Part shown: piece after piece, positions 23,591 to 53,282 of the stretch
Layout: each line of letters opens with the position of its first letter
How positions within the stretch are numbered: position 1 is the first letter of the stretch
Assembly (NCBI RefSeq): GCF_000378965.1
Contig: NZ_KB900536.1
Location: 65,001 to 129,000, forward strand
DNA length: 64,000 bases
Origin: Thioalkalivibrio thiocyanodenitrificans ARhD 1
GTDB taxonomy: Bacteria; Pseudomonadota; Gammaproteobacteria; Ectothiorhodospirales; Ectothiorhodospiraceae
Reading direction: 5' to 3'
Made by a program: the position numbers and the translations under genes
The notes under the pieces: model-generated
What the model was told of the DNA's origin: nothing
What the model saw: only the letters and a program-made list of their open reading frames with translations
Databases searched by the model: none

Positions 23591-23737
23591 ATTCAAAGTT
23601 CAAAGTTCAAGGTTCAAAGTTCAACGGGTCAGCACCGTAATATCCTTTGAACTTTGAACTTTGAACTTTGAACTTTGAACTTTGAACCTTGAACCTTGAA
23701 CCTTGAACCTTGAACCTTGAACTTCGAATTTCGATCT
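23591..23737. repeat. heptamer word hairpin (GTTCAAA/TTTGAAC), convergent junction
   Basis: The left arm (23591-23625) has five tandem heptamers of the TTCAAAG/TTCAAGG type. The right arm (23647-23737) has six TTTGAAC, five CTTGAAC and two decayed units. About 20 nt of unique sequence separate them. Any left-arm register can pair with the right arm, so the transcript in either direction folds into a long A/U-rich stem. It fills the gap between DUF2721 (+) and hemN (-), consistent with a bidirectional transcript end. Confidence 0.85.
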
Positions 23738-49929: not shown

Positions 49930-50123
49930 TTCGAAATTCTAGATTCGAAGTTCAAAGTTCAAAGTTCAAGGTTCAAAGTTCAAAGGGGGCTCGCGGGTCG
50001 GCACTGCGACATCGCGGACACCGCCTTTTCTTTGAACCTTGAACCTTGAACCTTGAACCTTGAACTTTGAACCTTGAACCTTGAACTTTGAACTTTGAAC
50101 CTTGAACTTTGAATCTAGAATCA
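49928..50123. repeat. largest heptamer word hairpin, rsmJ/Rieske-like convergent junction
   Basis: The left arm (about 49928-49985) has a unique outer part (ATTCTAGATTCGAAG) and then five GTTCAAA/G heptamers. The right arm has twelve heptamers (TTTGAAC and CTTGAAC mixed, 50031-50114) and then the complementary outer part (TCTAGAATC). About 45 nt separate them. Unique outer sequences pair as well as the heptamers, so this is a true hairpin and not merely a simple repeat. Confidence 0.88.
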
Positions 50124-50678
50124 TCCTCCCAGCACGATCCGGCTGCCGTCAACGCGATACGCCGGCACCTCGAGATTCCGACGGGCCGGCTGACCGTCGT
50201 GGACACGGCCGGCGAAGTCGTAGCGCGAACCCCGGCAACGGTCCACGAATCCACCGCCCCAGCCCTCCGCTGCGGCCTCCTCCGGGGTGACCAGATCCAG
50301 CGGACAGGACAGGTCCGTGCCCTGGGCGTAGGCGATGAAATAGCCGGGAGCCAGGGTGCGGCCGGGATTGCGGGCGTCACGGGGCTGAACGCTCCAGCGG
50401 GAGGCGGGGTCGTAGAGCCGCTGCTCATGGGCCGCATCGGCCGCGTCCATGGCCGGGCTGCGGCGCAGCACCATCAGTTCCCGGCCGCGCCATTCCACCC
50501 GGTGCAGACTACCGGGAGGCATATCTGCCAGATCGATATGCATGGGCAAGACCGAATCGCCTCCCGGATCACCGAAGAATCCGGACGCCATGGCATACAG
50601 CACAAACACGAGCAGGCCGCCGCCCATGAGCTTCAGGATCACGCGCAGGTAAAGCCGCCTCGAATCCGATGCACTCAT
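50121..50678 (-). CDS. membrane-anchored Rieske-like protein lacking all cluster ligands
   Basis: A 185-residue protein with one N-terminal helix (VILKLMGGGLLVFVLYAMASGFF) and a periplasmic domain. The C-terminal 75 residues follow a Rieske fold: GTDLSC (120-125) sits where box I CTHLGC is expected and DRCRGSRYDFAGRV (146-159) where box II CPCHGSxYD is expected. All four Fe-S ligands are changed (G120, D122, D146, R149) while both disulfide cysteines (C125, C148) remain. A [2Fe-2S] centre is therefore not expected. The ATG at 50678 follows GGAG. It may be a structural relative of the bc1 Rieske subunit with a non-redox role. Confidence 0.7.
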   Translation of the reverse strand: MSASDSRRLYLRVILKLMGGGLLVFVLYAMASGFFGDPGGDSVLPMHIDLADMPPGSLHRVEWRGRELMVLRRSPAMDAADAAHEQRLYDPASRWSVQPRDARNPGRTLAPGYFIAYAQGTDLSCPLDLVTPEEAAAEGWGGGFVDRCRGSRYDFAGRVHDGQPARRNLEVPAYRVDGSRIVLGG

Positions 50679-50776: not shown

Positions 50777-51097
50777 ATGAAACAACGCATCCCGCCCACC
50801 TACGTGGGGATCCACAACGATCTGTACGGCGGCATGACGCCCACCGGGGGCATCGTCAAGGATGCCTGGGTGTTCGGCCTTATCCCCGAAGAGGAAACCT
50901 GCGAGGGCTGGTCCGCAGCCGACATCCAGAACCTGTACGACAAGGTCAGTGAAGCCTGGCAACCCTACGGACATCTGGTAAGCACGCTCCCGCCGGAACT
51001 GCGCGAGCGCCATACCCGGATCCATGATGCCGCGGTCCGGCGTGCCCGGGAGGCCGGCTGGGTACCGGGGCAGGACATGGACAGCGACATGGAATGA
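50777..51097 (+). CDS. small protein of unknown function
   Basis: A 106-residue soluble protein: MKQRIPPTYVGIHNDLYGGM, then TGGIVKDAWVFGLIPEEETCEGW and a helical, charged C-terminus (LPPELRERHTRIHDAAVRRAREAGW) ending in acidic residues. No signal or membrane helix. I do not recognise the family, but the composition and codon usage look like a real gene, and it sits alone in a divergent position to the Rieske-like gene. It is convergent with yajQ through a 22-bp hairpin. Confidence 0.7.
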   Translation: MKQRIPPTYVGIHNDLYGGMTPTGGIVKDAWVFGLIPEEETCEGWSAADIQNLYDKVSEAWQPYGHLVSTLPPELRERHTRIHDAAVRRAREAGWVPGQDMDSDME

Positions 51098-52154: not shown

Positions 52155-52478
52155 ATGGCCGACATCTCCTTTTCCCTGCACGCTGAACAGACCCTGGAAT
52201 CCCTGCTGGAGCGCATGAGCGAGTTCGACGCCCTGGCGGATCTGGACATGGACATCATCGACGGGGTGCTGACGCTCGAGTTCGAGGACGGCGGCAAGGT
52301 CATCATCAATCGCCAGGAAGCCGCCAACCAGATCTGGCTCGCCTCCCCCGAAGGACCCGCCCACTTCGGTTATGACGCCGGCCAGGACGCCTGGCTCAAC
52401 GACCGCACCGGCGAGAGCCTCACCGACACGCTGAACCGGGTGCTGAGCGCCGGTTGCGGCGAGCAGATCCGATTGTAA
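52155..52478 (+). CDS. cyaY: iron donor protein CyaY (frataxin)
   Basis: A 107-residue frataxin homologue that modulates iron delivery to the IscS cluster assembly machine. The acidic first helix (LESLLERMSEFDALADLDMDI) is followed by the beta sheet with TLEFEDGGKVIINRQEAANQIWLAS and HFGYDAGQDAWLNDRTGE. A real CyaY is usual in gammaproteobacteria. It ends 12 bp before a word hairpin. Confidence 0.95.
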   Translation: MADISFSLHAEQTLESLLERMSEFDALADLDMDIIDGVLTLEFEDGGKVIINRQEAANQIWLASPEGPAHFGYDAGQDAWLNDRTGESLTDTLNRVLSAGCGEQIRL

Positions 52479-53149: not shown

Positions 53150-53275
53150 AAGTTCAAGGTTCAAAGTTCAAAGTTCAAAGTTCAAAGGCGTGTCACCTGG
53201 TCTTCTCCTTGAACCTTGAACTTTGAACTTTGAACTTTGAACCTTGAACTTTGAACCTTGAACTTTGAACCTTGA
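53150..53275. repeat. heptamer word hairpin 3' of selO
   Basis: The left arm (53150-53187) has five GTTCAAA/G units. The right arm (53208-53275) has about ten TTTGAAC/CTTGAAC units in a mixed order different from the other two loci. It ends 8 bp before the selO stop. It lies between two minus-strand genes, so here it would act on selO readthrough only. Confidence 0.85.
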
Positions 53276-53282
53276 GCTGCCC

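Follow-up and report, generated by a model that had tools for sequence, protein, structure and literature searches.

A conserved paralogue of the Rieske protein PetA with all four cluster ligands replaced and both disulfide cysteines retained

The window analysed here is a 64,000-nucleotide stretch of the Thioalkalivibrio thiocyanodenitrificans ARhD 1 genome (contig NZ_KB900536.1, positions 65,001 to 129,000), and its reverse strand carries the coding sequence of a ligand-less paralogue of the cytochrome bc1 Rieske subunit PetA (Table 1). The ATG at 50678 was taken as the start and agrees with the starts of the orthologues. The gene is adjoined by a divergent open reading frame of 106 aa (window 50777-51097, plus strand), which had no Pfam match and is found beside the gene in much of the family. 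A cyaY gene (frataxin, iron-sulfur assembly) lies 1.5 kb off at window 52155-52478 on the plus strand, and is also nearby in three other families (f126, f127 and f151). Arrays of intergenic hairpins occur at window 23592-23728, 49930-50126 and 53153-53276, one of which reaches the stop codon of the ligand-less gene. The hairpin unit is a 7-mer, TTCAAAG or TTCAAGG, followed by its reverse complement; a 21-base probe of the hairpin had 271 matches genome-wide, and the reversed control had 0.

Table 1. Features of the ligand-less PetA paralogue in window coordinates
Feature	Position	Strand	Evidence
Coding sequence of the ligand-less PetA paralogue	50121..50678	-	Open reading frame; 185 aa plus stop
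N-terminal membrane-anchor helix, residues 3-35	50574..50672	-	Helix in the AlphaFold2 model; R8, R12 and K16 nearly invariant and on one face
Flexible linker between anchor and head, residues 36-44	50547..50573	-	pLDDT <50 at residues 36-41
Periplasmic head with predicted Rieske fold, residues 45-185	50124..50546	-	7yr9_A: Z 21.8, rmsd 1.7 A, 141 residues aligned
Box I GTDLSC, residues 120-125	50304..50321	-	Canonical CTHLGC; ligands C to G120 and H to D122; disulfide C125 retained
Box II DRCRGS, residues 146-151	50226..50243	-	Canonical CxCHGS; ligands C to D146 and H to R149; disulfide C148 retained

The best relatives of the encoded protein are bc1 Rieske proteins, and by sequence comparison the gene is a paralogue of petA. 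The top PDB sequence match was PetA of Thermochromatium tepidum (7yr9; E 5.9e-23). The NCBIfam model for PetA (TIGR01416) was matched with an E value of 6.6e-25 and 88.1 bits, slightly below its cut-off of 97.4, whereas a Pfam search with the protein matched no family. The TIGR01416 cut-off was passed by 5 of 10 relatives tested, so that some members would receive a PetA annotation from that model. A mis-read or frameshifted canonical petA was ruled out, as the canonical gene is intact elsewhere in the genome and the orthologues are concordant. The genome has a single cytochrome b gene, at C1:1547044, adjoining the canonical petA at 1547895; the ligand-less gene lies at C1:115124, outside petABC and not beside cytochrome b. 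Intact canonical PetA was also found in six checked carrier genomes outside the window's family. Since the only cytochrome b of this genome has its own intact petA, and the six outside genomes have petA as well, the paralogue is an extra protein and not the bc1 subunit.

The first-pass annotation had proposed that the four Fe-S ligands of a Rieske fold are replaced by G120, D122, D146 and R149 while the disulfide cysteines C125 and C148 are kept. When aligned with the canonical PetA of the same genome (CTHLGC / CGCHGS), these residues fell in exactly those four ligand and two disulfide columns, which bears out both the numbering and the assignment. The loss had further been described as exact and total rather than scattered, and this held across the family: in 61 distinct full-length members, Cys or His occurred at 0 of 244 ligand positions, and the disulfide cysteines were kept at 122 of 122, that is, both in every homologue aligned. 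Because this pattern of complete loss and cysteine retention is the same in all 61 relatives, that of the window protein is not a chance one. No intermediate with partial ligand loss was seen among these members, and as membership was defined by lack of the combined canonical boxes, a partial loss would have been captured.

The replacement residues are themselves regular, with Gly or Ser at position 120, Asp at 122, Asp at 146 (60/61, with E in the remaining one) and Arg at 149. Position 122 is D or E in 54/61 members, the same 54 in which 149 is Arg; the other 7 have neither, and mixed cases number 0. On the tree, however, each of the two positions changes 4 times, a number too small to test the covariation formally after phylogeny. 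The canonical His-His pair thus appears, from the alignment, to have been swapped for Asp-Arg together or not at all. In a Granulosicoccaceae subtype (loci L120, L124, L128 and L131), Gly and Asp stand in place of the Asp-Arg pair.

These residues bear on two other readings of the site. A different metal or cofactor could be bound through D122, D146 and their neighbours, in keeping with the acidic residue at 146 in all 61 members and at 122 in most. We regard this as very improbable, given that D122 is partnered with R149 and not with another acid or His, and that on loss of the pair both positions turn to other residues (G/D, G/G, T/G or A/A). Alternatively, the retained disulfide may be redox-active, making the protein a membrane-anchored periplasmic thiol oxidoreductase or thiol sensor; both cysteines are invariant even though the cluster that they usually shield is lost, and the charged residues D146, R147 and R149 adjoin C148. 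The cysteines are, however, on separate loops and form no CxxC motif, and the corresponding disulfide of cluster-bearing Rieske proteins is structural, which leaves this reading unlikely.

The family extends well beyond the genus. Among 58 genomes picked as relatives, nearly all of those from the family to which the window belongs had a close orthologue, and the second, weaker match in those genomes was the canonical PetA. At the level of the order, a copy other than a broken-frame fragment was found in 40 of 47 genomes, or 36 of 38 of good quality, and one draft genome (G001) had a broken copy. Scanning of named genomes yielded members in Thioalkalivibrio, Ectothiorhodospira, Granulosicoccaceae and unclassified Gammaproteobacteria. 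At least 12 carriers from seven families (f1, f20, f52, f126, f127, f145 and f151) were found among 369 sampled genomes of the class, a count that is a lower bound as part of the candidates was scored. A search of the 369 genomes with the box II DNA pattern gave 12 matches, including just one further true member outside the window's own family; the rest were chance matches or own-family members. Of the top-scoring loci in a sample of the whole phylum, 29 others were read and each proved canonical, and no relative was found in the viral contigs searched.

A tree built without both boxes and the N-terminus placed the paralogues on one side of a branch with support of 98/100, and the paralogue clade was recovered at 100/100 when all columns were used. 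Neighbourhoods were compared using named window proteins. The shared gene order is yajQ, the ligand-less gene, rsmJ, slyX and a 2-hydroxyacid dehydrogenase gene. All or some of this order is present in the window's family and in f126, f127 and f151; Granulosicoccaceae and f145 have a rearranged version in which rsmJ stands between yajQ and the ligand-less gene. Loci in genomes G055 and G225 and on two other contigs (L105 and L113) are without the yajQ/rsmJ/slyX neighbourhood. The sequence data fit a single ancestral duplication followed by vertical inheritance, with which the common neighbourhood agrees. The neighbours yajQ, rsmJ and slyX gave no hint as to function.

Comparison of 16 close pairs gave dN/dS values of 0.05-0.33 (Nei-Gojobori, own script), and coding-sequence divergence places the family under purifying selection. 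Twelve scaffold residues that are near-invariant in canonical PetA (G56, R73, D90, P99, R107, C125, C148, D154, G157, R158, V159 and N168) are kept in 61/61 members, whereas the four ligands are kept in 0/61, P127 in 0/61 and the Pro-loop P166 in 1/61. A duplicate decaying towards a pseudogene might be suspected from the loss of the ligands and from the broken copy in the draft genome. This reading is refuted by dN/dS values far from the relaxed value of ~1, and by frames that are intact across families, invariant residues and a single origin.

The structure of the window protein was predicted with AlphaFold2 using the family's own alignment, from which canonical sequences were left out. The model (pLDDT 92.2) has one N-terminal helix, a low-confidence linker and a Rieske head that superposes closely on 7yr9 (Table 1). 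The second member modelled was the divergent L124, with Gly and Asp for Asp-Arg, and the same fold was predicted (pLDDT 91.6; Z 22.6 against 7yr9). The models therefore share with PetA a Rieske fold and a single transmembrane helix at the N-terminus. The two outcomes named beforehand as refuting the first-pass annotation, a model unlike Rieske domains and homologues with non-conserved cysteines, were thus not observed. The earlier proposals of a membrane tether formed by a single helix and of a fold reused without its cofactor are accordingly upheld, the latter at the level of sequence and model. PetA of T. tepidum (TtPetA) in a zinc form without [2Fe-2S] retains the conformation of the site (PMC10492824), making a stable cluster-free head plausible.

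The N-terminal anchor differs from that of PetA as well. R8, R12 and K16 are conserved in 58-60 of 61 members, R12 and K16 being specific to the ligand-less family, and anchor hydrophobicity is 2.45 compared with 1.89 in canonical proteins. A loose twin-arginine motif was found in 9/62 ligand-less members versus 62/64 canonical ones. The window protein has SRRLYLR near its N-terminus and, taken alone, may use Tat; the loss of Tat is thus claimed for the family, from the lack of conservation of the motif. Cofactor-loaded Rieske proteins are exported by Tat, since folding around the cluster happens in the cytoplasm. Loss of the twin-arginine motif is therefore consistent with loss of the cluster: with no cluster to load before export, the Tat pathway would become dispensable, the protein may enter the membrane unfolded, in the manner of a Sec/YidC signal-anchor protein, and the disulfide would be formed in the periplasm.

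Within the head, the C125-C148 disulfide and a salt bridge between D122 and R149, close to D146, would join the two loops that [2Fe-2S] normally cross-links. The tip carries on average 5.0 R/K and 4.6 D/E residues in ligand-less members versus 1.6 and 0.2 in canonical ones, and its apolar fraction is 0.37 versus 0.57. The tip of PetA enters the apolar Qo bowl of cytochrome b, and a charged tip favours protein binding and disfavours this canonical docking at the Qo site. The former cluster tip may thus now be a protein-binding surface and no longer an electron-transfer tip. On the strength of the alignments and models, we consider it probable that the conserved paralogue is a cofactor-free Rieske scaffold used for binding. 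Electron transfer from quinol to cytochrome c1 is not expected without the cluster.

The partner of such a scaffold is less certain. The likeliest single role, proposed tentatively, is to serve the respiratory chain (bc1 or its supercomplex) without redox activity, as an accessory protein or as a partner in assembly or stability, although the charged tip weakens a bc1 role in so far as it opposes Qo docking. An envelope protein in which the same cofactor-free scaffold has gained a new binding role, with a partner unrelated to bc1, has a serious claim that falls somewhat short of even. The gene lies apart from petABC and, in several families, close to yajQ, rsmJ and slyX, the tip has exchanged its apolar character for charge, and the anchor residues R12 and K16 are family-specific; that the checked carriers all also have bc1 PetA speaks only weakly against an unrelated partner, since most of the class does. 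The paralogue could also act as a dominant-negative bc1 subunit that replaces PetA in some complexes and turns the Q-cycle off. Its anchor-linker-head layout is that of PetA, and PetA of the Pseudomonas aeruginosa bc1-cbb3 supercomplex is among the best full-length structure matches, but the residues of the tip that would dock on cytochrome b are heavily altered, with the Pro loop lost and the tip charged, and we judge this reading quite unlikely. Returning to the cofactor-free scaffold, it is hypothesized, with due reserve, that an old duplication may have made, from a high-potential Rieske electron carrier, an adaptor that is inserted by Sec and holds no cofactor, where a disulfide together with a salt bridge would replace [2Fe-2S] structurally, and which would regulate or assemble respiratory or other envelope complexes as a stably inherited 'pseudo-Rieske' family.

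In T. thiocyanodenitrificans and many of its relatives, an electron carrier has thus apparently become a protein that does another job without a cofactor. The family offers a natural experiment on the contribution of the cluster to the fold, in that one duplication within one fold has lost all ligands and left the disulfide and scaffold residues untouched, with a covarying replacement pair. It also makes a switch from Tat to Sec export upon cofactor loss a testable prediction. With regard to annotation, the members above the curated PetA cut-off (half of those tested) would be labelled [2Fe-2S] proteins.

A search of the open-access literature for a 'pseudo-Rieske' or cluster-free Rieske paralogue found nothing fitting, nor did it yield a conserved family of duplicated PetA proteins that lack the ligands and coexist with a working PetA. 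NirD and NasG, the small subunits of nitrite reductase, are soluble and cytosolic. They are likewise Rieske-type with some members that lack cluster ligands. NirD/NasG is described as mediating electron transfer in nitrate and nitrite reduction, and in NirD of B. bataviensis one Cys and one His ligand are substituted (PMC3475470). PetA itself (TIGR01416; TtPetA 7yr9, P. aeruginosa PetA 8smr) is alike in fold, single N-terminal helix, linker and length, and the ligand-less family shares its disulfide Cys pair and its C-terminal YDxAGRV and NL motifs. Unlike PetA, the family lacks the four cluster ligands (CxH, CxxH), the Pro loop PAP, the apolar tip and a conserved twin-arginine signal, and its gene lies outside petABC. 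The closest precedent is PetA of Acidocella, in which three or four ligands are missing and the disulfide cysteines are kept (Degli Esposti 2023, PMC10715153). This ligand and cysteine pattern matches that of the ligand-less family, so that the chemistry of the loss has a precedent. In Acidocella, bc1 has degenerated as a complex, and the role suggested there is a structural one, namely to stabilise Complex I (PMC10715153). The Acidocella protein is, however, an operonic bc1 subunit, whereas the ligand-less protein is an extra paralogue that accompanies an intact PetA and is conserved, with defined replacement residues, in several families.
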